Shown in pieces: positions 3,384 to 62,315 of a stretch of 64,000 nucleotides of DNA. The notes under the pieces were generated by a model. The model was not told the origin of the DNA and made no database searches. It worked only from the letters and a program-made list of their open reading frames with translations. The DNA is from Allacma fusca. Its lineage: Eukaryota; Arthropoda; Collembola; Symphypleona; Sminthuridae. Every line of letters begins with the position of its first letter. The stretch's first letter is position 1. The stretch lies in contig OX359246.1 in the NCBI GenBank assembly GCA_947179485.1, positions 52,865,632 to 52,929,631 of the forward strand. Direction: 5' to 3'. The position numbers were made by a program, and so were the translations under genes.

Positions 3384-5068
3384 CAGTAATGCGATCGGGT
3401 CAAGTAATTTCAAAACTTCACCATGAACTTGACCTGACCACGAAACTTCAAGTAATTTTCAAGACACAACCTGAACTTGATAATTTGCGTTCGTGTAATT
3501 ACTTGACTTGTCAAGTTCAAGTAATCAAGTAACTTTTGTAAGACCCGAACTTGATCAAGTAGTTAAAGTTCCAAACTTGACTTGAACTTGACTTGACCAT
3601 GACTTGAACGCGACTTGAACTTGATAATTAAAGTTAAGCATCACAAAAAATTAAACATGGTCACAATAACTTGTCGAACTTGCATCAGCAAATTATTTTC
3701 TTCGGATTGAAAACCGAAACGCATTCAGAAAACAATTTTACTACTACTTTTTATTTAAAACTATTCGACGACAACTTTGTGCGTATACGTATAGTAAAAG
3801 TTCGATATCAGGGACAATACAATTTATAAAGGAATTTTCCTTCATATAAAACGTCTAAAGGATTGTATAATGAAAGTTGGGGTCAAACAAATGCATACCT
3901 GATACCGATACTTTCCTTATAATATGAACCCTTATAACGGACTTTCGTTGTATATCTGACGAGTTTTACATGGTGTCAAGCTTTGTTTAATGTTCATATA
4001 TGCATATATACATATTGAGCATTACAGTACTCTTAATTTAAAATTTAATAAACTAGTATTTACTTATTTATTAAACACTTTTTGTAAATAGCCAACCAAA
4101 CTAATTTTATATTGGAATTTAATCACACAGTTGGAACTAATAATTCTAAGCAACAATATGAATTATCAAGATAATTCTTTCATTTCATTGAGAGGCAACT
4201 GCAACAACTAACAATGAGCAACGTCTGGTAAACAAGACCTTCATAAAACGACTCTGATTTTGAATTTTGTCCTTTGATTTACGGCATGTGCAAACAATAT
4301 ACCCTGGACACGACATGAAATTGGATTGTGATTTTGAAATTCCTTCCGTCTTATATGGCAATCTGAAATTACTTGAACTTGACCATGAAATCTCAAGTTC
4401 ATGGTCAAGTTTTTTCTTTCCATTACTTGACCCTGAACTTGACTTGAGATTCAAGTAAATTTCTCTTACTTGTGTCACATTGTAAGATTCATGTGAACGT
4501 CTCCTGAACCTTATTTACCTAAAGATAATATACACTAAGGAAATGTATGAATAATGTCATGAGAGAATGTCAAGAGAGACTCCAGAACTCGGGAGTCGAG
4601 GTAGAGAGCTTCAAGGGAGAACAAGTGATACTCAGAATAAAACTACGATTCTTAAATACATTGATAAGTACAAAATGTCCCATATCCCTCGACTCATTAC
4701 AAGCATTTAACGAAGTATCAGTTATCCTTCACCTAACTAGAATACCCGTGTCGGATTGACAGTCCCCTCATATAATCATAATCCTGAGTTTGTGAGGCAA
4801 CTCCTTGGTGCCATTAACCGCTAAGCGAACACTTACGATATTGTATTTAGGTAACATTATCATATACGAACATACACCATAGTGCACCAAAACAACACGT
4901 CTCACTTGTACTTCAACCTGACTTGCCTTAGAATGTCATAATCAAGCCGAGTACGTACTTCAACTTCACCCAAAAGATTCAAGTAAACAAATTTGCCTAC
5001 TTGAACTTGACCCGAACTTGAACTTGACTTGAAAACTCAAGTATTGCTTGAACTTGTCCGCAGCACTG
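3384..5068. mobile_element. hAT-type element, word AACTTGA
   Basis: Ends CAGTAATGCG and CGCAGCACTG are imperfect inverted repeats, flanked by identical 8-bp duplications CTTACAAT (3376-3383 and 5069-5076). Degenerate copies of CTTGAACTTGACTTGA fill 3390-3620, 4370-4470 and 4900-5050 in both orientations. The centre is AT-rich with no transposase frame. TSD length and CAGT-type termini fit hAT. Confidence 0.88.
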
Positions 5069-5076
5069 CTTACAAT

Positions 5077-5802
5077 TATATACCAATGTATAAGAAACGA
5101 CCTTTCTATTTTTATTTTTATTGTAAAATATTTCCCCTTAAAACATACAATCCAAGCTCTGGATAAAAGAAGAACGGGTCCTATGATCGGGACACACCAT
5201 GACCACCTTCCTTACAACCACTTGCTAAGCCCTTACAAAGGAAAGCAATTTTTTTCCAAAACCTATTACATCCTGCACATGTTTTCTAATCAACGTTTTA
5301 AATAAACAGTGCTTTTAGTTGCAGTGCTTAAACATAATTCCGAATCTGCTTGTCCTTTATTTTGCCTACGTTAAAATTTCCACTTCATAATTTTATCCAT
5401 CACTCCATAAATTCATCCATAAAGGAACTAACAGCTGCATAGGGAAATGTTTCATAACTTAGTTTACGTTCAGGTACAGGTATTTACTGAGTGTATACCT
5501 ATACATGATGGAAAATTTTCAGGAATCTGTTTGACATTTGAACCAGTACCCAAACCGGGTGGGTATAAAAAATGTGTTACCTAATACGCACCTGTACCTG
5601 TACCCAAATAACCGGGTAAAACCTCTACGAATAAAGGGCACTATTTTGAATACAGCAGTTTATTTCAACAACAAATTTTTTCTAAAATATTTTTGAACGT
5701 TAGGTTGTAGGAAATTTTATACACTTTTTAAGTTATCCAAAAGTTCCTTACGTTCAGAACTAAGGGTATGTACAGTAAGAACGGAGAGGGGAGAGCAAGA
5801 TT
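5077..5802. other. Gene-free DNA with a word-repeat scrap
   Basis: Between about 5470 and 5630 there are CAGGTACAGGTA and GTACCCAAACCGGG words resembling the ACCCGT family, without recognisable termini. The rest is AT-rich and unremarkable. Confidence 0.45.
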
Positions 5803-6174
5803 AAGAAAATCAGGTACTCCGGAATAAGGGGGGACAGAGGGGTCATTGCCACTAACAAAAAACGTCAGGGAGGGACATGCTATACTACAGCCCCCCCACT
5901 TTTCAAGAATCAAAGAAGCCTCTTATAGCCAATAAGCCTTTTTAGAAGCCTGGTATATTCTTACTTGTGGAGATCGGCTCATCTAGGTAACTACCAAATT
6001 AAGTAGTGACAGTTGTGGTTCATGACACTAGTCCGAAATATATTTTTTAAAGCTCATTTTATCCTTGATAATGATTTTGAACTTAAGTGATTTTATGTCA
6101 GTATTGCAATAAAGTTTCAGGGTTGAAATTGTGTGATAGGGTGATAATTTAAATAGTAACTTAGGAATTCAACG

Positions 6175-6669
6175 TAGTGTTTCTGAACGGTACCAAAACA
6201 TGGACTCGGCCCGACTCGTTTTCCCGAACCGAAAAAAATCCCAATTCTGTTCCCGAAACCGGAACCGATATTTTCGAGTCCGGGACATTTTTGACTTCCC
6301 GGAACCGATCCGGAAAATAAAAGCGGTCCCCGAACCGGTTCCGGTTCCTTTCCGAACCGACAGAAAATGTATATGATTCATTTTTATGGAAGTCAAAATT
6401 GTGTCGCCTTTTCAAATAATAGTTGACAAATGCTCGCCAAATGCAGGTTTCGCGTTTTCATCCAAAACAGCAGCTTTAACAAACCCTTCCCGAAAACTTT
6501 CGGTTTTGATTTTTGTACCCGAAACCGGGCCGAAATTTGACGGTTCATAAACCGATGACCCGAAACCGGACCGAAATGTAACGGTTCTTTAAAACGTTGA
6601 CCCGAAACCGGACCGGAACCGAAACCGAACCGGAACCTCGGGAATTCCCGATACCGAACAGAAACACTA
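6175..6669. mobile_element. hAT MITE, word TTCCGG, copy 1 (495 bp)
   Basis: Ends TAGTGTTTCTGAACGG and CCGAACAGAAACACTA are inverted; the 8-bp duplication is ATTCAACG (6167-6174, 6670-6677). The paralogous empty site (AATTCAACGCAACGCG) survives near 48055-48070 in the other copy of the host element. The interior is made almost wholly of GGTTCCGG, TTCGGTTCC and CCCGAAACC words. A second copy of identical length lies inverted at 54989-55483; I saw no difference in the parts compared, so the family moved recently. Confidence 0.95.
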
Positions 6670-6918
6670 ATTCAACGAAACGCGAGTCATCAAGGAATTA
6701 GAGGATATTTTTATATCCATCATTCTTTGCTATTGTCGACCTTTGTCGAACAATTTGACCTCCCCTTACCAGATAGATCCAGACCAAAATTTTGTTCTGG
6801 ATCAAAAGTTAATACCATTCCTGTATTAGGAGCATAACGGACAATTTGGTCGGAGCAAATTTTATACTCGATAGGTTTTTGGCGCTGATACTATTGAAAA
6901 GAATACAACGGTCTCTAT

Positions 6919-9564
6919 CAAAGCTGGGCGCATACCCTACATGTATGCCTACAAGTAGGCAAAATTGTAGGCTATGCTCAAATTTTCACATATTTTGTAG
7001 GCATTTGTATGTAGGCTGCTTATTTCGAGGGAAACATATATGAAATATATGTATGCTGGGAATAATCAGTACGTACCTACATAAAAAAAGGTAGGTACTT
7101 AAGCATGAAAATGTAGGTATGTATGTTCGAACCTTTCGTATTCCAAAGCGCTGAATAAAAGCCCCATGTAGATTTTCTTTCACATGTTTTTTTTTACTTT
7201 TGTTTACGTGCTGTAGTGCCAACGATTTCAATTCGTTTGCAGTAAGTCTATCCCCTTCGAAATAACGTGCAAAGTGAAAAGTTGATTCTACATGAGAATC
7301 AGTCAGTAAAATTATCTAAAATGTCCGTAAATACAATCTTAGAAATAAGAGCAACATAAATTGATTTTTAATAAGTAGCACACAAAACCTTGTTGAAACA
7401 ATATCTGAAACTTTTCGAAGGTAAATTTAAAAAATGTGAATTGAACAAGTATTTTCATTGCCAACTATGTATGTATTGTTTAGTTTTAAATTAAGAGCCT
7501 TGTAAATAACTTCAATGTATGCATGCATAATTTCATTTTAGTTTTGCAGGTATGATTCAATTTATGTATTTTTAGGTATGACAAAGAGGTATGCTGGTTG
7601 TAGGTAGGGACAGATCTCGGGAGTGATGTATGTAGGTTGTAGGTAGTGACAAATCTAGGGAGTGATGTATGTACATATGTAGGTTGTAGGTAGGGTCAAC
7701 TCTCGGGGAGGGATGTATGTAGGTTGTAGGTAGGGTCAAGTCTCGGGAGTGATTTATGTAGGCTAAAATGTAGGTTGTACGCAGTGCTCGGACTGGATAC
7801 AGAAACCGTGTACCCGTACCCATACCCGTACCCGAATATCGGGTACTACAAAATGCTGTACCTATACCCGTACCCATACCCGAGTACCCGGGTAAATTAT
7901 TTCAGTACCCGTACCCGTACCTGAAAATACAATGTAGTACCTGTACCCACAATTTACCCGTACCCGTAATGTACCCAAAACCTGTACCCGTACCCGAGTA
8001 TCTATTGTTTGTACCCGGGTATTACTCGGGTACTGGAAGTTTGGCCGATTTAAAATCCCCGACGACATTAGCCTGCCCAGCTGAAAAATTTCAAGTTGTC
8101 AATTTTTGACCTCCATTAAAAGTGTCCGGGATTTTGGGAATTTTCCCTAGGCGTTAAAGACATCCTATTTGAATTTTTTGAAAAAATTATTTAAGGCATT
8201 GTGTGATTTTTTTAATAAACACTGACGAAATTCAAATCCTACTACCCCAAAATAATAGCTTGCTGAATGAAATGAAATGTGTTCTCGCTAATTGGAATTG
8301 GGACGGATTCTTTAATACTAAACTCTCCATAACTTGCTTTTCAACTTGGAGAACAAGAAACAATTTTTTTTCCGGCTAATCGAACTCTGTGTATAGAAAA
8401 TGTTAAACGGAAAAATTGAGTTGACCATAATTTTTCCAAGTCAAATATTGCGGTTTCAGGAAATAAATGTGGGAGGCAATATTGAATATTCATTTTATAT
8501 TACAGCTTTATAAAACAAACATTCGTAAACTGTCTCTCACATTTATGAAGCCCGAGACGGAGATTTTCGAAAAATGCAGGCAAAATAGAACTAAAATGCA
8601 ACCCCATGGAAGTTTTGAACGCCAAGTTCAGATGTCTGTCAAGTTCTTTTAACATCAAAATTATCAAGATTAATCAAAGGGACTGAAATATAAATATTGC
8701 GTGCAAGGAATGATATTTTTCATTCTAAAATGTTATAAATATTCACCTCAATGAATACTCAAAGTTTCATAAATACCCAGAATTGAAAATGCTCAAATTG
8801 CCTGCATAAAATGCCTTGGCGTTTTCAAATGGACAACCCTGGGTACTTGTAACGTTAAGAAATGGATCTGCTAATAAATGTATATTTATTCCGATCTTAT
8901 CTCGTAATACGTCTTCAAATAATTGTAATGTTACGCTCCCAATGAAGATAATTAAATTGAATCCCAAGAACTTCCCTTTTGAAATTCTTCGTTGATGAGC
9001 TTGACTATTTAAGTCGATAAACAGATGATTTCACTGACTCTACGCTCTATTTCTTTATTAGATTCCTTGGATGAATTATTAGAAGCGTTAGATTGCAACT
9101 ACCACGTAATCATAAATGAGACGAAGCCACTTGGCTCTGTCACTAACACAAGTATCTGTATACTACGAAATAAGCAACTCCACGGTTGGTAGGTCTTATT
9201 GTTAGCCATAGTAAACCATTCCATCAGGAACCCTTGAAGTACCCAAAAATACTCGGGTACAGCACCCACGGGTACAGGTATTTTACATAGTGATACCCGT
9301 ACCCATTGGGTACTACCCGATTGTCACTGAGTGAGTACCCATACCCGTACCCGCACCTGTACCCACTTTATTGTCTAAAATCCAGAGTACCCGGGTAGTA
9401 CCCGCGTACTTGCGAGTACGCAACTTCTGTACCCGGGTAGTACCCATACCTGTACCCGTACCCATTTACCCGAGTATTACCCGTACCCAGTCCGAGCACT
9501 GGTTGTACGTAAGAATCTAAAAATATGTAGGTTTTAAGGTATGCGAATACTTTGCCCACCTTTG
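6919..9564. mobile_element. hAT-type element, word TGTAGGTA
   Basis: Ends CAAAGCTGGGCGCATACC and GCCCACCTTTG are inverted, flanked by identical GTCTCTAT (6911-6918, 9565-9572). TGTAGGTA/GTAGGTTGTAGG words cluster at 6940-7110 and 7540-7780 and again near 9520-9545. It is inserted in the element 5811-10091 and is itself interrupted by 7782-9501. Confidence 0.87.
7782..9501. mobile_element. hAT element, word ACCCGT, copy 1 (1720 bp)
   Basis: Ends CAGTGCTCGGACTGG and CCAGTCCGAGCACTG are perfect 15-bp inverted repeats; TSD GTTGTACG (7774-7781, 9502-9509) is exact. Both ends (about 7790-8030 and 9235-9490) are arrays of GTACCC/GGGTAC words in mixed orientation. The middle (8060-9230) is complex sequence shared with the inverted copy at 53190-55623, including a minus-strand frame at 8767-8967 that is also present in that copy at 53730-53942. 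Confidence 0.95.
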
Positions 9565-10099
9565 GTCTCTATTAAAACGTCCACTAAAGAAGTTTATTTC
9601 AGTATATTAATAATTGCCATCAAATATACGTTGTTTGGAGAAACATTTACTTCCAAGAATTCTACGCCTCCAAATTTGGTCCATTTGGTCTGGTACCAGT
9701 AAATCTACCGGAGAATGTTCCATGGACCAAGATTATGAAACAGATGTTGCTTGGACCTAACCAGACCAAAAGTCAAAGAACAGATCGAACCATTCCCGTA
9801 GCTGATTAACAATTAGTGCCTCTATTTGAAGTCCATAAAATTTTGCTAGTGTCTAGGGTATGTAAGAAAAGGTTTCTAATATGATATTTGTGTCTTATGT
9901 GCAAGCTAAAATTCGTTTTAAAAATTAGAGGATCTATAATTTGCATGATTATATGATTGGCTAACGAAAAATTATGTGTAACCTTATATGTAGTATGTAC
10001 ATACATACGTTTGTGTATTTTCACTAGCAAACAAACTAAAACTAATTAAAAATGTTGTCCACCCACTTTTTAGAACGTTCCGGAGTGCTTGAAGAAAAT

Positions 10100-11714: not shown

Positions 11715-11716
<2 letters not shown>

Positions 11717-12022: not shown

Positions 12023-13431
12023 CAGAGATGTTCAAATGATTTTCCCTTCCTTCAATCCTTCGAATGCAAAAAAAGAGATTCATTTCCTTCCTTCAGACCT
12101 CTTTAGATTGAAGGCTTGGAAACAAAATTACTTCCTTCACCCTTCCTTCGAAGTTGTTTTATTGAGATCCTTCCTGAAGCCTTCAGTAATATTCTTCCCT
12201 CACCAAATTTCGTCTTCCGTAATATTTTATTTTCATATATGATACAACAAAGTCAAGATACGAAAATTACAGTACCCGCCAGAAATCGTCCTTCCATCGT
12301 ATTATACAGTAAAACTTGTCTATAGTGGCCGGCTATATAGTGGTTTCCTCCTCATAGTGGCCCATATCACGTTTCCCCGTCATAAGTCCTATCTTTTAAC
12401 ATTACGTACACCCCGCATATAATAGCTTTTTATATAGTGGTCTCCCTTCAATTGTGGCCTGGGATTTTTGACCATTCGTATATAAATACATGCTTTTATC
12501 TCTGCATACAGTGGTCCGAATAAACATCAGTGAAATTTAAATCGCGCGTAGTTTGTCAACTTGAAAAAACGTCATGCACATTCCATACCAAGTTGTGGCT
12601 TGGAATGGTTACTTATGTATGTATGCTCGGTATGATTGGTTTTCGAAGTTATTTTAAAGAGAACTATGACGTTTTGGGGGAAATACAGACAATCTCTTCC
12701 AAGGGGAGAGAACGTTCCTTCCAAATAAGGGTAGAGGTTCATTTTTTAACACAAGGCTTATATTTTAACAGCCTCATATAAGAAAGTTGCAGAATATCTT
12801 AAAATGCCAAAATCATCGGTATAAAAAATACATTCGAATAAAATACAAATTTCGTGTGGACAACGCTCTTAGGGAAAAAACAGAACGTTAAATGTTTACA
12901 TTGTCCTTCAAGAATTTCTCGCACGGAACAATATTAAAAGTATAAAGCATTCAAAAATTAGTAATTACTTTAATAAAATGTAATTGTTAATAAAATATTG
13001 CATACCAAGCAAGCATTAATGCATTAATCGGGAGTGAGAATTATTTAATTTTACGTACTGTATATAGTGGTTAGGACCACTATATCCGGCACAATGGTCC
13101 CTGTTAATAGTGGTCAAATTGTCTTGCACCTAGAGAAACCACTATAGACAAGTTTTACTGTATGTATCCTGGTACGTTACATGTGAATGAAAGCGCGTAT
13201 TGACGGCAATAGAGTTAGTTATATTGAAAGGTACATTCGGCGCGCGAAGGGTGATTGGGAAGCACCCTTCCGTCAACTTCAATTTTTTCATTAATGCGAT
13301 GAAGCCTTACTTGTTCCTTCGTAATTTTTTTCACCCTTCCTTCCCTTCCCTCTATTTCTTTCGAAAGAAGCGCATCCTTCCCTGAAGGAAGGCTTCTTTG
13401 AAGGGTACCCGTCGACGGGTGAACATCTCTG
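12023..13431. mobile_element. hAT-type element, word CTTCCTTC, copy 1
   Basis: Ends CAGAGATGTTCA and TGAACATCTCTG are inverted and match the family copy at 32796-33355 (CAGAGATGCGCA). CCTTCCTTCA words occur at 12040-12190 and 13260-13400. The expected 8-bp duplication is not seen (GTCCACGC left, GTACATTT right), so one flank has changed or the copy is recombinant. Interrupted by the pogo-like element 12307-13160. Confidence 0.72.
12307..13160. mobile_element. pogo/Tigger-like MITE, 854 bp
   Basis: Ends CAGTAAAACTTGTCTATAGT and ACTATAGACAAGTTTTACTG are perfect inverted repeats flanked by TA on both sides (12305-12306, 13161-13162), as in Tc1/mariner-pogo elements. TATAGTGG words recur at both ends (12320-12440 and 13055-13150). 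No transposase frame. Confidence 0.9.
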
Positions 13432-15054: not shown

Positions 15055-15979
15055 TAGGGATTGTCGATTTGAAAATGCCATGGCATATTGGGCATCATGC
15101 CTGCCCAAAATGCCAGGGCATTTTGGGCATTTTCAACTTTGGGCAAACACGTTGATTTTGGGCATATTCGGCACGGACATTTTCGGCATTTTCATTCCTG
15201 GGCATATTCGGCATTTTGGGCATATTCAGTTCAAATTTTCGGGTCGATTACCTTTTCCAGACATTATTGGTCCCTGCTACTACTTCCACTTGCTACTACC
15301 GCAAACTACCCCGCTCAATCGGTATAACAAAACTATTACTCGACGGTTTTAGCACAGGTAAATAAATCTGGTCAGTATCCAATTGTAGGAGTTGTAGTTT
15401 TTAAACGTCTAACCATCAACCATTGTTACTACTGGACAAAACTCACATTTTGGAATGTAATAAACTATGCCAACCTCGAAGCACTGGTCATAAAATTTGA
15501 GAAGTTTTATTTACGCTGGAGGTGGATGAAAGTTATACAAATCAAAGCTCTGATGGGGAGGATTTGTTGATGACGTATTTATCACTTTTAGTCTTCTCAT
15601 TATTTTTATACAAAATCCAACAAAATTGTATTCGTCAATAATTCAATATAAATTGTCTGTATGAAACACAGCGAGTATCTTTTGAAATATAATACATTTA
15701 AACAAAATTGCCATGTACGCCTTTAATAGGATTTCATTTTAATAGTGACATTTATTATTTATGATGTCATTAATGATTTATTATTATAAATTTATGACAG
15801 AAATGCAGAATATTCCCGGCTGAAAATGCCTAAAATGTCGAATATGCCCAAAATGCCCAAATTCAGGGCATTTTCCCAATGTGCCAATATGCCCAAAAAT
15901 ATGGCACGTTGGCGGGCATATTGGGCGTATTCAGCTTGGCAGGCATATATGCAAGGGCATTTTCAATCGACATTCCCTA
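15055..15979. mobile_element. hAT MITE, word GGGCAT, copy 1 (925 bp)
   Basis: Ends TAGGGATTGTCGATTTG and CAATCGACATTCCCTA are inverted; the TSD CATATTAT (15047-15054, 15980-15987) is exact. Both ends are built of TTTGGGCATATTC/AAAATGCCC words. The second copy is at 45045-45990. Inserted inside the MULE 14062-17248. Confidence 0.94.
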
Positions 15980-20440: not shown

Positions 20441-21167
20441 GTAAATTTTATCGTATTTGTCACAGCATGTTTTTAATTGACTAATTAACAATCCAGTGTA
20501 TTTCTAATATACTGATTATGCATGAGCACATCGAGACAGCAAATCGAGATTCTCGATATTCTCGATCTTTTTTTACCATCGAGACTAATCGAGACATCTC
20601 GATAATTTATCGAGAATCTTGTTAATTTTTCGTCTCGATAAAATGCGCATACGCGTCAAAAAAGCGGATACTCTGTATAAGAATGCTAAACTCATAGAGT
20701 CTGAACAATGGTGGAAAATGTTTTACTGAATTCGGATGTTAACTCTTCAATGAAAAAAATATTGCTGCAGTTTATTTAAAAATATTTCGGTGGAGAAAAT
20801 TAATTTCACATCACATCCAAGAGGATCAGGAGAAAATTATATCGAGAGAACTACATTAATATTATAGTTTTAAATAAGTTGTGGTTTTAATGAATACGGG
20901 GACTTGCAAAATTAACCACAATGTACATTTTTGTCCCCTTATTCAATAATTTTGGGCTGTCTCGATTGTCTCGATATGAATGTGTTCTCGATGTCTCGAT
21001 TTATAAAATTCTCGATCTCGATATTTTGTTCTAAAACAAGAACAAGACTATCGAGAATTTTAAATGATTCTAGACACTCATGCCTAATACTGATAGCTCA
21101 ATCCTTTATCGTTTTGGATGTATTATGCTCGTATTATGACAATATTTGAATGAAGTTTTTTGTTTAG
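20441..21167 (+). other. USP48 intron 4, mostly one transposon
   Basis: 727 bp, of which 578 bp is a hAT MITE plus its duplicated 8 bp. Without it the intron would be about 149 bp, in line with introns 1-3, 5 and 7. Confidence 0.9.
20517..21086. mobile_element. hAT MITE, word TCGAGA, copy 1 (570 bp)
   Basis: Ends TATGCATGAGCACATCGAGA (first bases mutated from TAGG) and GACACTCATGCCTA; the TSD ATACTGAT (20509-20516, 21087-21094) is exact. TCTCGATA/TATCGAGA words fill both ends. An about 99% identical, equally long copy in the same orientation is at 59438-60007; I count roughly five or six differences. Confidence 0.95.
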
Positions 21168-28584: not shown

Positions 28585-29027
28585 TAGGGATGCCAAATAC
28601 GATAATGTCGAGACGATATTCTCGGAAATATCGCCATTTTACCACCGATATAACTTGCGATAAAAATCGCCAAATGTGTCGAGAATATCGGTGTCTCGCA
28701 AATATCATTTTCCATACATTGGGCCTGTTTTTAATGTGCCTTCGGTTTGGGTAGCGCGGTTAAATGAGAATAATGCGAAGGGATTCATCTAAATGGCATA
28801 CAAGTATTACTGGCTTAAACAGCGCTGCCGTACAAGCCTTACTCCTTCACTAGAAACATTCTTTGTATGCAAATTTCATGTATATAGTATGCACAACTGC
28901 ACACATGTATTACCGCCATCAACAATAATTGTGCATGCAGTCGTCCTCATTTCATTTCTCTCCGACGCATTTTCGGTTTAATAATGTATTTTAATATAAT
29001 AATAATTGTTTATAATAGTTAGTGAAG

Positions 29028-29280: not shown

Positions 29281-29294
29281 GAGTCACTGAATTC

Positions 29295-30839: not shown

Positions 30840-30862
30840 CACTGAATTCGGTTGTTCAAGAT

Positions 30863-30967
30863 TTGTACGTGTCAGAAGATAACGACTTGGATGACAACGC
30901 TAGCTTCGTCACCGCACAATCTGACTTGGAGGATTGCCCGGATTTGTTCTTTGATGCAGAGGATTAA
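30863..30967 (+). pseudogene. Acidic C-terminal tail of the BED element
   Basis: 34 codons ending in TAA: LYVSEDNDLDDNASFVTA then QSDLEDCPDLFFDAED. The same peptide, with five substitutions and no frameshift, occurs at 63035-63139. It is probably the transposase C-terminus left after loss of the catalytic middle. I do not recognise the motif. Confidence 0.5.
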
Positions 30968-33355: not shown

Positions 33356-33390
33356 ACACAGTCTACAATAAATTTAGTGTATGTTGTAAG

Positions 33391-42118: not shown

Positions 42119-42932
42119 TAGGCATGAGCGGAACGATATAACGATACGATATATCGGTCCATATCGTACATTTTTAAGCAACGATATGTCACGATATTTC
42201 TCGCAATTTTAAAGCGATATATCGGTTAATTTTAATATCGTACATAGGAAGTTTAATTTTTAAAAATGCCACCCTGTGCCCCTCTTACTACTTGTTTTTT
42301 AAGTAAAGCTATTAAGTAATGTGAAACGTTACAAATGTCACTGAAAAAGTCTGGGCAAAACGGATAAAGCTCGAGCATTTTAAAAATACTTGTCTGAATT
42401 CGAAGTTAGAACTGTAGTAATACAAAAAAACAAAATGCTTTTTGTAGTAAAAAAGCATTTTCAAACTTAGTTTGTTTGAGCTGGCCGATGCCGATAGTGC
42501 TCGGACCAATTCAATTCTGAGTCGGAAAATTTCGATTCAATTCAAAACGAAACTGAACCGATTGGTTCAGTTTGAATTGGACGGAATCATTTTACTTAAA
42601 TTATTGAAGTTCAAACGATCCAACGTTTACCAGCTCTCCAGTTCCTAATATGAAAAAATCCAGGGCATGTCATAAGTGAAAGTATTACAGGTCTTAAAGT
42701 TCAATCTTTCAAGGAATTTGATTTTACAGGCTGTTTTAAGGAGAATAAATTACAAATATTGAATATTCTGCAAAGATACGTTAAATCTGATAGAGTTTCA
42801 TCAAAATTAGTATATTGTTTTAAATTTAATCAAATACAGATATATCGCTCATGGATATCGGTATCGTGATTTTTCTTGTTAACGATACCGATATTAACGA
42901 TATTTTAAAATTGAACGATACGCTCATGCCTC
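42119..42932. mobile_element. hAT MITE, TIR TAGGCATGAGC, word CGATAT
   Basis: Ends TAGGCATGAGCGGAACGATA and ATACGCTCATGCCTC (last A changed to C); the TSD ATAACTAC (42111-42118, 42933-42940) is exact. Its TIR resembles the TCGAGA family (TAGGCATGAGCACATCG), but its words are CGATAT as in 36458-37236. A scrap of the AATTCAGTTC family (TAGTGCTCGGACC) lies at 42495-42590. Confidence 0.93.
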
Positions 42933-45044: not shown

Positions 45045-45990
45045 TAGGGATTGTCGATTTGAAAATGCCGTGGCATATTGGGCATCATGCCTGCCCAAAA
45101 TGCCAGGGCATTTTGGGCATTTTCAACTTTGGGCAAATACGTAGATTTTGGGCATATTCGGCACGGGCATTTTGGGCATTTTCATTCCTGGGCATATTCG
45201 GCATTTTGGGCATATTCAGCTCAAATTTTCGGGTCGATTACCTTTTCTAGACGTTATTTTTCGCCGCTACTACTTCCATTTGCTACTATCTGTACTGCAC
45301 ACTACCCCGCTCACACCGTTATAACTAAAAACGATTACTCGACAGTTTTAGCACACAGGTAAATAAATATGGTCAGTAGACAATTGTAGGAGTTGTAGTT
45401 TTTAAAACGTCTAACCATTGTTAATACTGGACAAAACTCACATTTTGGAATGCAATAAACTATGCCAACCTCAAAGCACTGGTCAGAAAATTTGAGAAAT
45501 TTTATTTACGCTGGTGGCGGAGCAACGTCTACAGAGGGTGAAAGTCATACAAATCAAAGTTCTGATGGGGAGGATTTGTTGATGGCGTATTTACCATTCG
45601 AGTCTTCTGATTAACTTTATACAAAATGCAACAAAATTGCATTCTTCAATAATTCAATATAAAGTGTCTATATGATACACAGCGAGTATCTTTTGAAATA
45701 TAATACATTTGCACCGAATGTCCATGTACGCCTTTAATATGATTTCATTTTAATAGTGAATAGTGGCATTTTTGACTCGATTCTATTACTGAGTTTTACC
45801 TGCCAGAAATGCCATATATTCCCGGCTGAAAATGCCCAAAATGCCGAATATGCCCAGCCGAAAATGCCCAAATTCAGGGCATTTTCCCAATGTGCCAATA
45901 TGCCCAAAAATATGGCACGTTGGCGGGCATTTTGGGCATATTCAGCTTGGCAGGCATATATGCAAGGGCATTTTCAATCGACATTCCCTA
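45045..45990. mobile_element. hAT MITE, word GGGCAT, copy 2 (946 bp)
   Basis: Ends TAGGGATTGTCGATTTG and CAATCGACATTCCCTA; the TSD ACGACAAT (45037-45044, 45991-45998) is exact. Nearly collinear with 15055-15979 in the same orientation. Confidence 0.95.
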
Positions 45991-47610: not shown

Positions 47611-49008
47611 CAGGCACTCCGGAACAAGGGGGGACAGGAGGGACGTTGACCCTCCAAAAAATCGTCAGGGAGGGACAGGCTGTACTACTGTCCCCCCCCA
47701 CTTTTCAAGAATCAAGTTAACCTTTTCTTAACTTTTTGCTGTCAAAACTCCTATTCAATTTTTTAAAAATCCTTCACAAACTGCTGTTAGTTGTGTTTAA
47801 AAAACTCGAAAGAAACTATTTCTACTAAACAAAAATGTTTACACAAATTGTAAAATATTTTTTCATCCGTTCATCTAGGTAACTACCAGAATTGAGTAGT
47901 GAAAGTAGTGGGTCATAAAACTGCAGTCCGAAATATATTTTTAAATCTACCGGTTTCATCCTTGATAATGATTTTTAACTTACGTTATTTTATGCCAGTA
48001 CTGCAATAAACATTGTGGGTTGAAATTGTGGGATTGTTCAAATAGTAGCTTAGGAATTCAACGCAACGCGGCCCGTCAAGAAATTAAAGGATATTTTGCT
48101 ATCCATCATTCTTTCCTATTGTTAAATTTGGAATATTATTTCCCGCTACGTTTGCCGAACATATTGACCTCCCCTTGCCAGATTGATCCAGGCCAAAATC
48201 TTGGTCTGGATCAAAAATTTGAACAATTTGAAACTTTTGCTTTAAATTTCGTTCCAAACTCATACCAGATCAATAAATCTATTCCAAAATGTCGGACCAG
48301 ACAATTAATACCATTCCTGTATTACGAGTTTAACGAACAATTTGCTAGGAGCAGTTTATATACTCGATAGATTTTAGCACTCCAATGTTACTGAAAAGAA
48401 TACAACTGAGTATTAAAACGTCACCTATGGAGTTTATTTCAGGATATTAATAATTGGATGATAATAATAATAATTAATGAAATATTGTTGTTGGGGAAAA
48501 CATTTACATCAAAAAATTTACTGACACAAAATTTGGTCTGTTCCAACGGATGGAAAAGACCATGCACTTTTAAACCAGTAAATCTACTGGAGAATGTTCC
48601 TTGGACGAAAATTGTGCAACAAATCTTGTGGAAAGGTTCTAAACTTGGACCAGACCAAAAATCCAAGAACAGATTGAACCATTCCAGGAACTTGATCGCC
48701 AATCAATGCAAGGATTCTTTGAAACCTCTATTTGAAATCCATAAAATTTTGATAGTATTTACTGTGTGTAAGTAATGTTCTAATATATGAGATTGAGTTG
48801 GTGTGTTCTATGAAAGCTTCTTCTTTTAAAAACAATCTTGGAATAAAAATTAATAGATCTATATTTTGCATGCTTATATGAGCAAATTAACGAAAAATAT
48901 TGTGTAACCTTACACATACATACGTTTGTATGTGGTCAGTAGCCAAGTAACGAAAACTAATTTTGAATTGTTGTCCCCCCCACTTTTTTGGACGTTCCGG
49001 AGTGCCTG
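47611..49008. mobile_element. hAT-type element (CAGGYACTCCGG), copy 2
   Basis: Ends CAGGCACTCCGGAACAAGG and ACGTTCCGGAGTGCCTG; the TSD CTATAGAC (47603-47610, 49009-49016) is exact. CCAGACCAA/TTGGTCTGG words inside, G and C runs near the ends (GGGGGGACA, TGTCCCCCCC). It holds the uninserted version of the site where copy 1 received the TTCCGG MITE. Confidence 0.94.
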
Positions 49009-51066: not shown

Positions 51067-51699
51067 CAGTGGTCGGACTGTACTGTACTTTTTAGTACAG
51101 TATTGATAAAAGTACAGCATTGGTACAGTAACGCATCATCATTATGTTTCGTCAATAAAGCAGAGTACAGTATCTACATCTATTCATAACATGAACTATT
51201 GACACAGTATTGAAAAGCCGCTATAGCAATAAAAACAAGTAAAGCAAAGCAACGAATTGTTATAAATAATACAAATTCATATAAAGTACAGCAAATTATT
51301 GATACACGCAAAGGACCCCATCTAGTAAATTTACGGAGGAACTACTTACGTTAGACATTTACCATACGACATTAAAACGACAAACGAAAGCAGAATGAAC
51401 GGGCGATATTTGTGATTATACAATATTGACGATTATATACGTACTTCTATGGGTAAAGCACAGTATTGATAACTATTTATGTATAACTAGTAGAGTAAAG
51501 TAAAGTATTGATGACTATTTTTGCATAACTAGTGCAGTAAAGCAGAGTATTGAAACATATTTCGATGTGCTTTTAAAAGTAAAGCATTGTATTGAAACAA
51601 TTATCATATCCAGACTATAGTAAAGCACAGTACAGGTAAAGGCAACTGTACAAAAATAGCACTAGAGTATTGTATTGATGAATCAAAGTCCGACCACTG
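51067..51699. mobile_element. hAT-type MITE, word TACAGTATTGA
   Basis: Ends CAGTGGTCGGACT and AGTCCGACCACTG are perfect inverted repeats. Flanks GTCTATCG and TATATACC do not match. GTACAGTATTGATAA and GTAAAGCA words throughout. It stands at the junction between LINE sequence (left) and a pogo-like repeat (right). Confidence 0.78.
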
Positions 51700-52295: not shown

Positions 52296-53189
52296 GCTAT
52301 TTCCAGGGTTGAAAATCGGAATCAAAAAAGAATCCGAAAATTTAAAGTAATAGAATCGGAATCGGAATTAAAAATGTAAAATTAGGTATTGGAATTCTAA
52401 TCAGAATTGGATAAAAAGTATGGGTATTTGTATTAGAATTTAATGATATTCCGATGAATTCCGATTCCATTTCTGACATTGCATTATACAGGCATAAAGA
52501 GGCCTTTAGAATCTTTTACATAGAACCTTTACCTTCTACCCTTTACACTTCTACATGGTTTTTGCGCAAATAGTTCTTTATGGTGGTAAAACAAATGGTA
52601 AGTAAGGCAGATTCATTTGTTCATGATTACTACGACTACAATAGAAATTTAGAAATACAAAAAAATAAAGACATGTTCCAAAGTATTCTGAAAAGAACTA
52701 TGGACCGCACAAGGGACAAATGAAACAATGTGTTTACGTGGTTGAATGATTCAGAGTTTTCAGAAATTCTTCAGCAAGTAACATTTGTAATTTTGACCAT
52801 TCCAGTAACTTAGGTTACTGTGGGAAGACATTTCTCTGCATTACGTTTAATTTAAAACTATAATCTAGGTCGACTACCGGAGGATTCCCTGTAAAACATG
52901 TCGTTTGTTCAAGTAAACAATAGTTTGGTCAACAACTGGTCGAATGACTTAAAACTGACAAAAATAACAATAAATTATAGGTTACATGCACGGAATTGAA
53001 ATCGAAATTATTTAAGTATTTGAATTAATTGGTATCGGAATTCAAAATTAATGATTTGGATACGTGGGAATTGGAATCGGAATTATTTAAAAGTGTTTGA
53101 ATTAATTGGTATCGGAATTCAAAATTAATGATTTGGATAAGTTGGAATCGGAATCTAAATCGAAGTTAAATTTAGGTAGGTATTTGAAT

Positions 53190-55623
53190 CAGTGCTCGGA
53201 CTGGGTACGGGTAATACTCGGGTAAATGGGTACGGGTACTGGTATGGGTACTACCCGGGTACAGAAGTGGCGTACTCGCAAGTACGCGGATACTACCCGG
53301 GTACTCTGGATTTTAGACAATAAAGTGGGTACATTTACGGGTACGGGTATGGGTACTCACTCAGTGGCAATCGGGTAGTACCCAATGGGTACGGGTATCA
53401 CTATGTAAAATGCCTGTACCCGTGGGTGCTGTACCCGAGTATTTTTGGGTACTTCAAGGATTCCTGATGGGATGGATTACTATGGCTAACAATAAGACCT
53501 ACCAACCGTGGAGTTGCTTATTTCGTAGTATACAGATACTTGCGTTAGTGACAGAGCCAAGTGGCTTCGTCTCATTTATGATTACGTGGTAGTTGCAATC
53601 TAACGCTTCTAATAATTCTTCCGAGGGATCTAATAAAGAAAAAAGCGTAGAGTCAGGAGTCAGTAAAATCTCCTGTTTATGGACTTACGCAGTGAAGCTC
53701 TTTAAAGAAGAATTTCAAGGGGCAGGTTCTTGAGATTCAGTTTAATGAGCTTCATTGGGAGCGTAACATTGCAATCATTTAAAGAAGTATTACGAGATAA
53801 GTTCGGAATAAATATACATTTATTAGCTTCGACCCAGATCCGTTTCTTAATGCTACAACCCCAGCGTTGCCCACTTGAAAATGCCAAGGCCAAGGCCAAA
53901 TGTACAGGCAATTTGAGTATTTTCAATCCTGGGCATTTATGACACTGAGTATTTATTATATACAGTGAATATTTTTACAATTTTAGAATTGAAAATATCA
54001 TTCCTTGCAGGCAATATTTATATTTCAGTCCCTTTGATTATTGTTGATAATTTTGATGTTAAAATAAGAGGCATCTGAACTCGGCTTTCAAAATTTTCAT
54101 GGGGCTGCATTTGAGTATTATTTCGCCTGCATTGTTCCAAAATTTGCGTCCCGGGGTCCATAAATGTGAGAGACAGTTTACGAATGTTTGTTCTATAAAG
54201 CTGTAATATAAATCGAATATTTAATCTTGCCTCCCACATTTATTTCCTGAAACCGCAATATTTGACTTGGAAAAATTATGATCAACTCAAAATTTTCCGT
54301 ATAACATTTTCTATAGTGTTCAAATATATTGTTTTGTGAATACGTTATATCGTTGATGGAAAACTGGCATGATCAGGAAATTCTACTTTCCTCCTATACT
54401 TTACTAACCTTGCGTCCTATTTGTAAGGTAATGTCAACAGTTCTTAACGACTTGTGTTAAAAGATTTTTGAGAAAACGATTTGTCACAAACAAAATTGTT
54501 TCATGTTCTCGAAGTTGAAAAGCAAGTTATAGAGAGTTTAGTATTAAAGAATTCGTCCCAATTGTTTATCCTTACACCATACAAGAATTGTTCAATAAGC
54601 AATTCGCGAGAACACATTTCATTCAGCAAGTTATTATTTTGGGGTACTAGCATTTGAATTTCATCAGTGATCATTAAAATAAATCATAAAAGGCCTTAAA
54701 TTTTAAGATTTTAAAGATTAAAAAAAAATTAAATAGGATACCCTTAACGCCTATGGAAAATTCCCAAAATCCCGGGCATTTTTAATGGAGGTCAAAAAAT
54801 TGATAAATTAAAAATGTTCAGCTAGGCAGGCATATGTCGTCGGGGATTTTAAATCGGCCAAACTTCCAGTACCCGAGTAATACCCGGGTACAAACAATAG
54901 GTACTCGGGTACGGGTACAGATTTTGGGTACATTACGGGTACGGGTAAATTGTGGGTACAGGTACTACTTTGTAGTCTCAGGTACGGGTAGTGTTTCTGT
55001 TCGGTATCGGGAATTCCCGAGGTTCCGGTTCGGTTTCGGTTCCGGTCCGGTTTCGGGTCAACGTTTTAAAGAACCGTTACATTTCGGTCCGGTTTCGGGT
55101 CATCGGTTTATGAACCGTCAAATTTCGGCCCGGTTTCGGGTACAAAAATCAAAACCGAAAGTTTTCGGGAAGGGTTTGTTAAAGCTGCTGTTTTGGATGA
55201 AAACGCGAAACCTGCATTTGGCGAGCATTTGTCAACTATTATTTGAAAAGGCGACACAATTTTGACTTCCATAAAAATGAATCATATACATTTTCTGTCG
55301 GTTCGGAAAGGAACCGGAACCGGTTCGGGGACCGCTTTTATTTTCCGGATCGGTTCCGGGAAGTCAAAAATGTCCCGGACTCGAAAATATCGGTTCCGGT
55401 TTCGGGAACAGAATTGGGATTTTTTTCGGTTCGGGAAAACGAGTCGGGCCGAGTCCATGTTTTGGTACCGTTCAGAAACACTAGGTACGGGTACGGGTAC
55501 TGAAATAATTTACCCGGGTACTCGGGTATGGGTACGGGTATAGGTACAGCATTTTGTCGTACCCGATATTCGGGTACGGGTATGGGTACGGGTACACGGT
55601 TTCGGTACCCAGTCCGAGCACTG
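53190..55623. mobile_element. hAT element, word ACCCGT, copy 2
   Basis: Ends CAGTGCTCGGACTGG and CCAGTCCGAGCACTG; the TSD ATTTGAAT (53182-53189, 55624-55631) is exact. Collinear with 7782-9501 in reverse orientation, lengthened by the 495-bp MITE 54989-55483. A plus-strand frame at 53730-53942 (SFIGSVTLQ, LRDKFGINIHLLA, CPLENAK) matches the frame at 8767-8967 of copy 1; it could be a transposase remnant but I do not recognise it. Confidence 0.95.
54989..55483. mobile_element. hAT MITE, word TTCCGG, copy 2 (495 bp)
   Basis: Ends TAGTGTTTCTGTTCGG and CCGTTCAGAAACACTA; the TSD GGTACGGG (54981-54988, 55484-55491) is exact. Copy 1 of the host element keeps the empty site (CAGGTACGGGTACGGGTACTG, reverse of 7888-7922 region). 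Same length as 6175-6669. Confidence 0.95.
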
Positions 55624-55678
55624 ATTTGAATTGGAATTGGAATTTTTATTTTTCCGATATTTCATCCCTGACTATTTC

Positions 55679-57577: not shown

Positions 57578-57918
57578 CAGGGATCGGATTTCTGTGGGAA
57601 GATTCTTCCCAGGGAAAAAATATTTCTGGCAGGGAAAATCTCAAAGTGAAGGGATTATTTTTTGTGAACATGAATTTTTTGATCTTTTTTTTTGCAGGGT
57701 TTTTCAAATTTGTTGGCATGTTGCAGCAAAATTTGTTATGCAAACAGGGATTTTTAGATTGGTCGTCCTAATTTGACAGGAATTTTACGTCTTGTTGCGA
57801 AATAATTTTTGCCAACAGGGATTTTTGAAATCCTTGAGGACCTCCCTGCAGGGACATAAGATTCAGCAGGGAAATTCAAAAATGATCTTTCAGGGAGATT
57901 TACAAAAATCCGATCCTG
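57578..57918. mobile_element. hAT MITE, word CAGGGAAAATC (341 bp)
   Basis: Ends CAGGGATCGGATTTCTGT and CAAAAATCCGATCCTG; the TSD GAGTAACT (57570-57577, 57919-57926) is exact. GGCAGGGAAAATC and CAGGGATTTTTG words inside. Confidence 0.92.
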
Positions 57919-59437: not shown

Positions 59438-60007
59438 TAGGCATGAGCACATCGAGACAGCAAATCGAGATTCTCGATATTCTCGATCTTTTTTTACCAT
59501 CGAGACTAATCGAGACATCTCGATAATTTATCGAGAATCTTGTTAATTTTTCGTCTCGATAAAATGCGCATACGCGTCAAAAAAGCGGATACTCTGTATA
59601 AGAATGCTAAACTCATAGAGTCTGAACAATGGTGGAAAATGTTTTACTGAATTCGGATGTTAACTCTTCAATGAAAAAAATATTGCTGCAGTGAATTTAA
59701 AAATATTTCGGTGGAGAAAATTAATTTCACATCACATCCAAGAGGATCAGGAGAAAATTATATCGAGAGAACTACATTAATATTATAGTTTTAAATAAGT
59801 TGTGGTTTTAATGAATACGGGGACTTGCAAAATTAACCACTATGTACATTTTTGTCCCCTTATTCAATAATTTTGGGCTGTCTCGATTGTCTCGATATGA
59901 ATGTGTTCTCGATGTCTCGATTTATAAAATTCTCGATCTCGATATTTTGTTCTAAAACATGAACAAGACTATCGAGAATTTTAAATGATTCGAGACACTC
60001 ATGCCTA
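59438..60007. mobile_element. hAT MITE, word TCGAGA, copy 2 (570 bp)
   Basis: Ends TAGGCATGAGCACATCGAGA and TTCGAGACACTCATGCCTA; flanks TTTGATAT (59430-59437) and CTTGATAT (60008-60015) match at 7 of 8. About 99% identical to the copy in intron 4, same orientation. Its own termini are intact, unlike the TATGC start of copy 1. Confidence 0.94.
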
Positions 60008-60502: not shown

Positions 60503-60600
60503 GTGAGTGTCATTCCAACTATCAAATTATTTTGCATATAATCTAATTAGATTATTTAGATGAACTGAAGAAGTTTTAAACTACTCTGATCTTTAATCAG

Positions 60601-60722
60601 GTGGTTACTAGTAAAACAAGAGGAGTGGGCTTTCATTCAAGATCTATTTTCTGTTGACTTTGATATTAAAATCACTGTTGCGGCAAACATTGGGCACGAT
60701 TGTGATTATGTATATTTCCCGG
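60601..60722 (+). CDS. USP48: USP48 exon 8 (third DUSP)
   Basis: Acceptor ATCTTTAATCAG. Encodes residues 875-915: KWLLVKQEEWAFIQDLFSVD then FDIKITVAANIGHDCDYVY, matching the WxxEWxxIQxLFxVDxxIKI block of USP48. Proposed donor CCCG|GTATGA (ends with G at 60722, phase 1); the frame would otherwise stop 24 bases later. No later exon with the CPEC-type or ubiquitin-like part was found before 64000. Confidence 0.88.
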
Positions 60723-61390
60723 GTATGATACAAGTTACACTAATGTAAAATTACAACTTTTCGTCTGCCTCGTTCGTGAATGTTTTTTTCACACGGCTTC
60801 CCCCCGTGAAAAGTGGACTCTCATAGGCGCGAAATATATACATACATGTACGTTGCAAAACAATCATAGGTGGGCCATTTTGTCTCTCTCAACCTTTTTG
60901 TGTGGGTTACACAATACTAACACTGTACAGCCAACTATTGTTGGCTAGTAAGTTGAGATGACAGCAAATAGTACATGCAATAGCTAGCTGCGCAGTGCTA
61001 TGGTCGTGGACGCATCAAGAGCGCGCAAATATTTGATTCTTACCATCACGAAGACTATCCACTCGTTCAACTTACAATTAGAAGAGAGGATAATCTACTC
61101 GGAATCTTCCTCGTCACCAATCAAGCGACACGTTACGAATTAATCTGGCCCTAACCCTCGTCAGGGGTTTTTTACGGGCGAAGCTAAGCTGATTGTCCGT
61201 AATGCGAATGTCGCGTCGGGACCTGCTTGTCTGTCACCACGATGACTGCCGACTGCCGAGACAATGACACCAGGCAATTCAAATTTCTTGTAGTATAGAT
61301 TGGGTCAAAAGCATAGCTGTTCACGAGCTCCCCAAGTCCAGTCTATCCTTATTACTATTGACCACTTTCTCTGATTTAAACTTTCGCGGC
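60723..61390 (+). other. USP48 intron 8, start; possible MITE debris
   Basis: CAGCCAACTATTGTTGGCT (60931-60949) is a near palindrome like those at 46790 and 47080, and ACAATTAGAAGAGAGGATAA near 61074 resembles the outer end of the MITE at 46686-46946. No coding sequence recognised. Confidence 0.4.
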
Positions 61391-61479
61391 CTTGGCTTTA
61401 CAATTCAAACCTTCGCGGCTTTGGCTTTACAATTCAAACCTTCGCGGCTCATTTCCCTATATAGCAACCCGCTATGTAC
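61391..61479. repeat. pogo-like repeat with 30-bp tandem duplication
   Basis: TTGGCTTTACAATTCAAACC then TTCGCGGC is present twice in tandem (61391-61450), then GCTCATTTCCCTATATAGCA leads to CTATGTAC. Reverse paralogue at 51740-51815, where the 30-bp unit is single. Confidence 0.85.
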
Positions 61480-62315
61480 TAGTGTTGGCAAGTGCGATAC
61501 GATATTATCGCAAATATCGCCAAAAATATGTGCGATATTAGTGGCGATACTTATCGCCAATCATGTCGAGAATATCGGGTATCGCCAATGGAAACTATTT
61601 TAAACTCCAAGTACTTTCTGGCATATTTCTTTCGCGCGAGTCAAGTAAAAGGGTGCATAAGCAAGCATGCCGTCGCTGAAGAGGCAAAATGGAGTATGTG
61701 CGCATGCTTTTGTACAGCACTTAGACCATTTTGCCTCTTCATCGACGAAATCCTCTACCTTTTGTTTTTACAACAATACAATTCGATAACTTGTAGCAGG
61801 AAAAACTTTTGAATGGTTCAATTAAAAATTTTTAAACAAGCGTAGAATGTCTCATATAAACCCTGGATGTGCAACTTGAGTTTATAATTTAAAATGTTCA
61901 CAATTTTGAAAAATTCGGAATTTTAAAAAAACATTTAAAATTTAAAACTCATATATTAGATGCCATACAACCACATTTTTGAAAAGCTTCCAGAAAAGTA
62001 GAAAGTATTTTTAAAATTTCAGTAACAGCACATGACAGCCACAATGGTTGTCTTAGATGTAATATAGGTATAAAATTCAATATTTTGCATGCTAGCTTCG
62101 CTCTCCATGTAATCGCCCAGTGATTACAACATTCAGATTTTTCATATATAATGACAACGCTAATAGCTAGTTCTGTTGATGTTAACTCTATATTTCATGT
62201 TCTAATTCGCTTATCGTATCGGCGATACCTGATATTATCGCAAATATCGCAAAATTGCATTCTACCGATACCGATATTCCTAATACTGCCAAACTGGCGA
62301 TACTTGCCAACCCTA
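61480..62315. mobile_element. hAT MITE (TAGTGTTGGCAAG), word CGATAT
   Basis: Ends TAGTGTTGGCAAGTGCGATA and CGATACTTGCCAACCCTA; the TSD CTATGTAC (61472-61479, 62316-62323) is exact. CGATATTATCGC words at both ends. Confidence 0.95.

Follow-up and report, generated by a model that had tools for sequence, protein, structure and literature searches.

Short repeated sites just inside the ends have been described for several hAT transposons. In Hermes, from Musca domestica, the transposase is an octamer that engages several of its BED fingers simultaneously; the finger reads repeated subterminal AAGT sites and binds an inverted pair of them cooperatively, and the two ends have 17 and 14 candidate sites, antisense on the left and sense on the right (PMC10368747). 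We read this strand layout (PMC10368747) as a one-way arrangement if both ends are numbered inward. Ac/Ds of maize has an 11-bp terminal inverted repeat (TIR), an 8-bp duplication, and AAACGG hexamers at both ends; the Ac transposase reads these repeats, and Ds1 and Ds-l4 share little with Ac beyond the ends (PMC3260210). The hAT-derived BED proteins of the CGGBP / hAT-19 type differ widely in the 8-mers that they prefer (at least eight distinct preferences in coelacanth), and for four hAT-encoded BED proteins the motifs match their own subterminal regions (PMC8097297). In Kat1 of Kluyveromyces lactis, there is a hexameric subterminal repeat (AATTCA/TGAATT) that is conserved in three species (PMC4763223). 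Here we analyze a 64,000-nucleotide stretch of the genome of the collembolan Allacma fusca (contig OX359246.1, positions 52,865,632 to 52,929,631; hereafter, the window), for which an earlier note, made from the sequence alone, had described at least 26 hAT elements built from short "words" that differ from family to family. We find that the delimited elements carry 15 different 6-mer words within this one 64-kb stretch, and that in two families with similar TIRs, different words occupy the same positions near the tip.

All 26 elements counted by the earlier note were recovered (Table 1; we refer to elements by their first position). An 8-bp target site duplication (TSD), as in other hAT elements, flanks each of them: the two copies are identical for 23 elements and differ at one base for the other three (10954, 52304, and 59438). 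As an independent scan, we searched for TIRs that match at 7 or more of 10 bases and flank an exact 8-bp repeat, with 30 dinucleotide-preserving shuffles as the control; the scans omit a 106-bp tandem array at 22623-27918. There were 20 matches in the window, whereas the shuffles averaged 0.27 and never exceeded 2, and we judged one of the 20 (1617-1748) to be due to chance. With repeats of 5, 6, 7, 9, 10, or 11 bp, the same scan gave 24, 11, 3, 0, 0, and 0 matches; the counts at 5 and 6 bp are high because short repeats easily match by chance. Four of the elements with exact duplications fall outside the 20 matches: 5811, 20517, and 42119 were found by wider scans, and 57578, whose TIR pairs only with a one-base gap and whose TSD is exact, was spotted by eye. 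One-mismatch repeats show no excess over chance as a class (5 in the window with TIRs of at least 8/10, versus a shuffle mean of 3.0 and a maximum of 6), so the three elements of this class rest on their TIRs (10/10 for 10954, 9/10 for 52304, and 10/10 for 59438) and, for 59438, also on its 98.9% identity to 20517.

The TIRs of hAT elements are short and begin with (C/T)A(G/A), with a G at the fifth base. In 24 of the 26 elements, both ends start with CA or TA and have A or G as the third base; the exceptions each concern a single side, where 20517 has T at base 3 and 42119 has G at base 1. Not every fifth base is G: the TAGGCATG families have C there. No viral contig or prokaryotic genome among those scanned matched the elements' TIR patterns. 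Many of the elements are miniature inverted-repeat transposable elements (MITEs), that is, they are short, are non-coding as judged from 20 open reading frames (ORFs), and occur in several copies with common ends. Using blastn, we found these groups of copies within the window: 6175/54989, 20517/59438, 15055/45045, 36458/39876/42119, 7782/53190/32258, and 5811/47611. Several of the 26 elements are nested in one another. The elements at 6175-6669 and 54989-55483 are inverted relative to each other and are identical across 495 bp, and their duplications differ (ATTCAACG versus GGTACGGG), so they are separate insertions and at least one of them is recent. These identical copies suggest that a source of transposase was probably present in the host genome not long ago. 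The second copy sits within the CGGGTA word array of 53190-55623, and its duplication belongs to that array.

To score the words, we compared 6-mer counts to background. In most of the 23 elements scored, one 6-mer and its overlaps dominate (-log10 p of up to 50), with 5811 and 47611 reaching just 6. Most 800-bp chunks of background score low and six reach 7 to 14; two of these six overlap elements that were delimited later (3384 and 57578), and the other four, which start at 34535, 35335, 38438, and 51409, are arrays without clean boundaries. To avoid circularity, we also split each element, with its TIRs removed, into halves and used one half to select the best 6-mer and the other to count it. 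At p < 0.01, 20 of the 26 elements passed whichever half served for selection, and 22 passed in one direction or both; the failures were 5811, 10954, 35141, and 47611. It is therefore fair to say, as the earlier note did, that nearly all of the elements carry word arrays, except that 5811 and 47611 have no word and that those of 10954 and 35141 are weak. A chance origin of the elements and words was ruled out by the shuffles and by testing in one half a word that was chosen in the other. Nor are the words equally dense in other DNA, which the earlier note had named as an outcome that would undermine its idea: per kb, an element has 3 to 32 copies of its own word, whereas other elements have 0 to 1.4 and the background has 0 to 1.5. 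The words in this density comparison are those of the earlier note, several of them shortened, plus GCGATA, which this analysis added.

Some of the words were not chosen blindly. For 10954, the top 6-mer (AGGTCA) was set aside because it comes from a 39-bp tandem repeat at 11458-11645; for 28585, CGGGAT was set aside, being located in the nested piece 29300-30834; the second-ranked 6-mer was taken for 20517, 59438, 37913, and 52304; and the words of 3384 and 57578 were picked in a separate run from the others. The piece at 29300-30834 has CAGAGCTAATCCCG inverted ends whose flanks share CACTGAATTCG a few bases outward, instead of an 8-bp duplication at the tips, and is possibly another type of transposon.

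A word was assigned in 23 of the 26 elements (5811, 35141, and 47611 have none and are left out of the position counts), always as a short motif repeated inside the TIRs, as is typical for hAT elements. Of 374 exact copies in these 23 elements, 365 are within 250 bp of an end. This confinement is trivial in short elements, but in the eleven elements of over 900 bp, these zones are 26-55% of the length and hold 206 of 215 copies. For example, all 31 words in 7782 (1720 bp) are near its ends (p = 2e-17). The copies away from the ends are a cluster of eight in the middle of 3384 and a single copy in 29626. In 14 of the 23 elements, the first word at the left end begins at base 12 to 19. To describe the elements as built from words was thus an overstatement, as the ends carry words and the interiors do not. 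"Massively amplified" is not supported either: the elements have 4 to 32 exact 6-mer copies each, as compared to the 17 and 14 candidate sites at the ends of Hermes (PMC10368747).

When copies of a word are aligned with their flanks, positions five or more bases away carry a mean of 0 to 0.14 bits of information in 22 elements (28585 was left out because it has too few copies). A tandem-duplication origin of the arrays was ruled out by this near-absence of flank information. Positions nearer to the word carry up to 0.93 bits, so some words are longer than six bases. Word orientation varies. The arrays of three families are nearly one-way (3 versus 14 for CCTACA, 8 versus 1 for CAGGGA, and 3 versus 12 for GAAGGC); in some families, one direction along the element prevails at both ends, with 13/17 and 10/14 of the words of 7782 and 4/7 and 10/10 of those of 6919 on the minus strand; and in 36458 and 61480, the words have no preferred direction. 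Exact inverted pairs of copies are present in 10 of 17 representative elements, such as TACCCGGGTA (4), GGTTTAAACC (6), and CGGATATCCG.

Words are retained as their surroundings diverge. According to blastn, 7782/53190 match 32258, and 36458/39876 match 42119, only at the ends. In these diverged ends, 88-96% of word bases are identical, as compared to 65-73% of spacer bases (p = 4e-4 to 1e-9; these values overstate the significance, as both copies contributed a count for every column). Similarly, exact words are intact in 13/21, 12/20, 9/15, and 9/14 cases, versus 12/142, 13/149, 9/71, and 9/81 for word-free 6-mers, where the count is taken from one copy, its 6-mers overlap, and the four comparisons reuse copies. 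Two pairs of closer copies show the same trend: identity is 1.00 and 0.99 in words versus 0.94 and 0.94 in spacers for 7782/53190, and 1.00 and 0.99 versus 0.86 and 0.85 for 36458/39876. Being confined to the ends and kept while the spacers diverge, the words do behave as subterminal sites in the hAT sense, as the earlier note had proposed.

The most informative comparison is between the ACGATA family (36458, 39876, and 42119) and the TCGAGA family (20517 and 59438), whose TIRs (TAGGCATG) agree at 10 or 11 of 12 bases. In their first 80 bp, 39876 and 59438 each have six exact words, all of which coincide in position and orientation without any gap (15+, 28+, 35-, 44-, 63+, and 73+); a seventh TCGAGA site, at 81-86, lies beyond the compared region. 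Of the sites in the first 80 bp of 36458 and 42119, 5/5 and 5/6 are shared with the TCGAGA layout. At every shared site, ACGATA is opposite TCGAGA, so that the same two columns differ and four agree; ACGATA is absent from the TCGAGA elements and TCGAGA from the ACGATA elements. We compared 1102 pairs of ends whose words differ. Six of these pairs have at least five positions in common, and all six are between these two families; none of the pairs share four positions and six share three, while a randomised control reached four just once in 5510. The spacers are also moderately alike. Between 39876 and 59438, 16 of 32 spacer bases agree up to base 80 of the left end, versus 8.0 +- 2.2 (maximum 14) in 57 ends from other families, and at the other end, 15 of 26 agree up to base 62, versus 6.8 +- 2.2 (maximum 13). 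The link between word and TIR is not strict: 42119 has ACGATA words, yet its TIR (TAGGCATGAGCG) is nearer to the one found in the TCGAGA family. Further ends of the TAG(G/T)GATG type with TATCGCC words are at 41066-41858, 44064-44945, and 59032; for those with both ends known, the 8-bp flanks do not match. ATAGCTATAT follows both 41858 and 44945.

There are weaker candidates for such a change of word. The right end of 37913-38437, with GGTTT words, resembles the end at 35749, with GATTT words (score 37, versus a maximum of 19 in 600 null comparisons). None of its 11 GGTTT/AAACC sites are kept at the 35749 end, and six of them read exactly GATTT/AAATC there; the 35749 element has no clean duplication. 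Also, TIRs of the type (C/T)AGTG(C/G)TCGGAC are found with CGGGTA words in 7782 and 53190, with CAATTC in 33391, and with GTACAG in 51067-51699 (which has no clean duplication); 32258 has a variant of this TIR with CGGGTA words, and the lone end TAGTGCTCCCC at 39172 contains CAGGTA six times and CGGGTA not once.

We think it probable, taking these claims jointly, that the window is a nested, layered set of non-autonomous hAT transposons, that each family's word is a predicted subterminal site for a transposase acting in trans, most likely read, on the precedent of Hermes, Ac, and the hAT BED proteins, by its N-terminal BED zinc finger, and that the ACGATA and TCGAGA layouts would be the sites of one transposase whose specificity shifted, with the sites following. 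What the window displays directly is 8-bp duplications with TIRs, end-confined arrays, mostly unrelated spacers, conserved words, and different words at matching sites. Having many sites at both ends would give a multimeric transposase its grip. The two layouts would descend from one ancestor, the transposase would read the word, and its BED finger would have changed specificity; sites may have been replaced one after another in an autonomous lineage, from which new MITEs were derived afterwards. The word switch at matching sites lends some indirect support to the guess of the earlier note that word and BED finger co-evolve, and overall, the note's interpretation is partly supported.

A number of observations weigh against this reading. 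Two elements, 5811 and 47611, have no visible word. In the GGGCAT pair (15055/45045), words are not conserved over spacers (0.98 versus 0.96 at both ends, p = 0.74), perhaps because these copies are too alike. Farther in, the ACGATA and TCGAGA layouts diverge, with 6 shared sites out of 9 and 9 over 125 bp, and at the other end, 3 are shared out of 7 and 7. The spacers of the other ACGATA copies do not stand out at the left end, where 36458 (14/32) only equals the control maximum and 42119 (12/27) is below its maximum of 13; at the right end up to base 80, 39876, 36458, and 42119 agree at 17, 16, and 19 bases versus maxima of 17, 17, and 18, and 39876 (17/32) only ties there. Neither blastn nor a score-based comparison of the ends without their TIRs linked the two families (no match and no score of 20 or above, respectively), which we attribute to the difference between the words themselves. 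Furthermore, this switch is one evolutionary event seen in five copies. For GGTTT/GATTT, the alignment has 29 mismatches in 118 columns, with 11 changes of G to A or C to T against 3 in the opposite direction, so mutation bias may be the source of the change in this A/T-rich sequence. Finally, the BED finger, the RNase H-like core, and the hAT dimerisation domain had no Pfam match in the 20 ORFs tested (of 226 with at least 70 amino acids), and hence no autonomous partner was identified. This absence is expected for non-autonomous copies, and hAT membership is read here from the DNA ends.

Could the matching layouts arise without common descent? A transpososome that requires its sites at set distances from the tip could impose one layout on two families that are not homologous beyond the TIR. 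Hermes has three contacted sites close to the tip (PMC10368747), general alignment does not link the two families, and the likeness of their spacers is moderate; these last two points somewhat lower our confidence in our own reading and in the wider one given below, and somewhat raise it in this alternative. We consider it unlikely: at both ends, the spacer agreement between 39876 and 59438 is about double that between unrelated ends; the TIRs of the two families match at 10 or 11 of 12 bases; and among the pairs tested, no other word family uses this layout. Another view is that a host protein, rather than the transposase, binds the words: a domesticated BED or CGG-binding protein, or some other transcription factor, that opens chromatin or aids excision. 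Host proteins derived from hAT elements do bind a comparable range of motifs (PMC8097297), and a change in a host reader would give the same picture of conservation and switching. Still, about 15 words in 64 kb would require about 15 host readers, each tied to one group of TIRs, while having one transposase per family would explain the tie between word and TIR directly, so we think a host reader quite unlikely.

Two other explanations would do without any reader. The arrays might be mutational by-products, from slippage or tandem duplication within MITEs, with no selection on the word. Some of the arrays do include true tandem repeats (7589-7762, 11458-11645, and 38333-38396), yet sequence five or more bases from the words has almost nothing in common, the words are confined to the ends of long elements and are kept more than the spacers are, and slippage would not place two words at the same six positions; it is very unlikely that the arrays arose in this way. 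Or the words might serve DNA secondary structure, with inverted copies forming hairpins that aid MITE amplification and with concerted change keeping the pairing. The exact half-site palindromes in 10 of 17 representative elements fit this idea, but the one-way arrays of CCTACA, CAGGGA, and GAAGGC could hardly pair with themselves (as judged without computing folds), and we give the hairpin explanation hardly any credence.

In a wider reading, the words may act rather like passwords: TIR and layout would be inherited, and the word at every site would be swapped in step with the BED finger. A new autonomous lineage would then be freed of the old MITEs, and a genome with many hAT elements would fill with families that differ mainly by their word. 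We offer this extension tentatively, at somewhat less than even chances. As part of it, and with the same reserve, the swaps in the window would be graded: clear for ACGATA/TCGAGA, probable for GGTTT/GATTT, and a hint for CGGGTA/CAGGTA (with CAATTC and GTACAG on similar TIRs). DNA-protein recognition that involves multiple sites is hard to change because all of the sites must move together, and families on both sides of a switch, with the layout still in register, would give a way into how binding specificity shifts. If general, such switching would explain how many hAT families coexist in one genome without mobilising each other, and the specificity of a BED finger could be read from MITE sequences alone.

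Table 1. Delimited elements and further ends in the window. All elements and MITEs listed are hAT-like.
Feature	Positions	Strand	Remarks
Element, word ACTTGA, 32 copies (8 in mid-element cluster)	3384..5068		TSD CTTACAAT exact, TIR 8/10
Element CAGGTACTCCGG/CAAGCACTCCGG, without word, contains nested elements	5811..10091		TSD AAGAAAAT exact; no cross-validated word
MITE, word CGGTTC, 100% identical to inverted 54989-55483	6175..6669		TSD ATTCAACG
Element, word CCTACA, interrupted by nested 7782-9501	6919..9564		TSD GTCTCTAT; 17/17 words near ends
Element CAGTGCTCGG, word CGGGTA, 1720 bp	7782..9501		TSD GTTGTACG; 31/31 words within 250 bp of ends
Element TAGTGCTGTAAT, weak end word GTACAA	10954..13978		TSD one mismatch; 10/10 words near ends; half-to-half test failed
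MITE TAGGGATTGTCG, word GGGCAT	15055..15979		TSD CATATTAT
MITE TA(G/T)GCATGAG, word TCGAGA, word switch partner	20517..21086		TSD ATACTGAT
Element TAGGGATGCCA, CGATA-type words, contains nested elements	28585..31246		TSD ATGGCCAG
MITE TAAGGTTCTGCA, word CGGATA	29626..30529		TSD CATGCATT; 28/29 words near ends
Element CAGTGCTCG, word CGGGTA, resembles 7782 and 53190 at ends only	32258..34534		TSD ATTCGTTT
MITE CAGAGATGCGCA, word GAAGGC	32796..33355		TSD ACACAGTC
MITE TAGTGGTCGGAC, word CAATTC(AGTTC)	33391..34163		TSD GTTGTAAG
MITE CAGGGCTG, few GAATTC words (weak)	35141..35470		TSD GTTTAAAA; no cross-validated word
MITE TAGGCATGTTCA, word ACGATA	36458..37236		TSD TTCGCGAC
MITE CAGGGTTGG, palindromic word GGTTTAAACC, 6 copies	37913..38437		TSD GGTAAAAC
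MITE TAGGCATGTTCA, word ACGATA, word switch partner	39876..40714		TSD GTATTCAC
MITE TAGGCATGAGCG, word ACGATA, resembles 36458 and 39876 at ends only	42119..42932		TSD ATAACTAC
MITE TAGGGATTGTCG, word GGGCAT	45045..45990		TSD ACGACAAT
Element CAGGCACTCCGG, without word	47611..49008		TSD CTATAGAC
Element CAGGG(T/A)TG, word ATCGGA(ATT), contains nested 53190-55623	52304..55670		TSD one mismatch; 10/10 words near ends
Element CAGTGCTCGG, word CGGGTA, contains nested 54989-55483	53190..55623		TSD ATTTGAAT; 30/30 words near ends
MITE TAGTGTTTCTG, word CGGTTC, within CGGGTA array	54989..55483		TSD GGTACGGG
MITE CAGG(G)ATCGGATTT, word CAGGGA	57578..57918		TSD GAGTAACT exact, TIR with one-base gap
MITE TAGGCATGAG, word TCGAGA, 98.9% identical to 20517-21086	59438..60007		TSD one mismatch
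MITE TAG(T/G)GTTGGCAAG, word GCGATA	61480..62315		TSD CTATGTAC
Two ends with GATTTAAATC words (CAGGGTTGC / CAGGGTGGC), pairing uncertain	35749..37639		No 8-bp duplication; left end resembles right end of 37913-38437
Relative of 32796 family, CAGAGATG ends, within 10954-13978	12023..13431		Flanks without match
CAGTGGTCGGAC ends with GTACAG words	51067..51699		Flanks without match
Lone end TAGTGCTCCCC, CAGGTA words: 6 CAGGTA, 0 CGGGTA in 360 bp	38813..39172	-	

The window also has features outside of these elements. The large tandem array at 22623-27918 has about 50 copies of its 106-bp unit and a strong strand bias, with a GC skew of -0.40 at 24001-28000; it adjoins a repeat of about 110 bp, rich in GTCCGGACA/AGACCCC, at 21836-22178. 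Arrays of AAATAC/GTATTT words, with no recognisable hAT ends, flank the element 35141-35470 on both sides (34640-35720), and a fragment of the 33391 family (42495-42545) lies inside 42119-42932. Among the 20 ORFs compared to Pfam, matches above the curated cut-off were to a ubiquitin-specific protease gene and a BIR domain, with a few weak matches below and no transposase. The protease is a host gene at 18188-20481 with its UCH domain across three ORFs; a protein search with the protease ORF gave two relatives, a Ladona fulva protein with 27% identity and another protein with 52%. The BIR (inhibitor of apoptosis) domain, barely above the cut-off, is in an ORF at 63-539 on the minus strand. An ORF of 187 amino acids at 50256-50819 (minus strand), which had no Pfam match up to E = 0.1, resembles a fragment of a reverse transcriptase.

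That hAT elements have subterminal binding sites is established biology, and the diversity of BED specificities is already published. The earlier note's statement that such a range of words was undescribed is weakened by the diverse 8-mer preferences of hAT BED proteins (PMC8097297). What seems new is that 15 words occur within so few kilobases and, in particular, that a common site layout carries different words: we found no account of a concerted change of hAT subterminal words on a fixed layout, a weak negative, judging by titles and the openings of abstracts, with subscription papers mostly outside the coverage.

The window resembles Hermes (PMC10368747) in having many short sites per end, asymmetry between the ends, and inverted pairs. 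It differs in that the Hermes word is AAGT while the window has 15 other 6-mers, of which as many as 31 exact copies fall in the outer 250 bp of an element, and a word switch between families with similar TIRs. Just as Ds1 and Ds-l4 resemble Ac (PMC3260210), 32258 and 42119 match their relatives only at the ends; in contrast to Ac/Ds, with one word in one family, there are many words in one short stretch here. The diversity of the CGGBP / hAT-19 proteins was measured from the protein side, and the portion of that study cited here does not compare matching sites across a switch (PMC8097297). The Kat1 repeat is close to the AATTCAGTTC word of 33391-34163, a likeness that may be due to chance, and unlike the families in the window, Kat1 is a domesticated single locus (PMC4763223).

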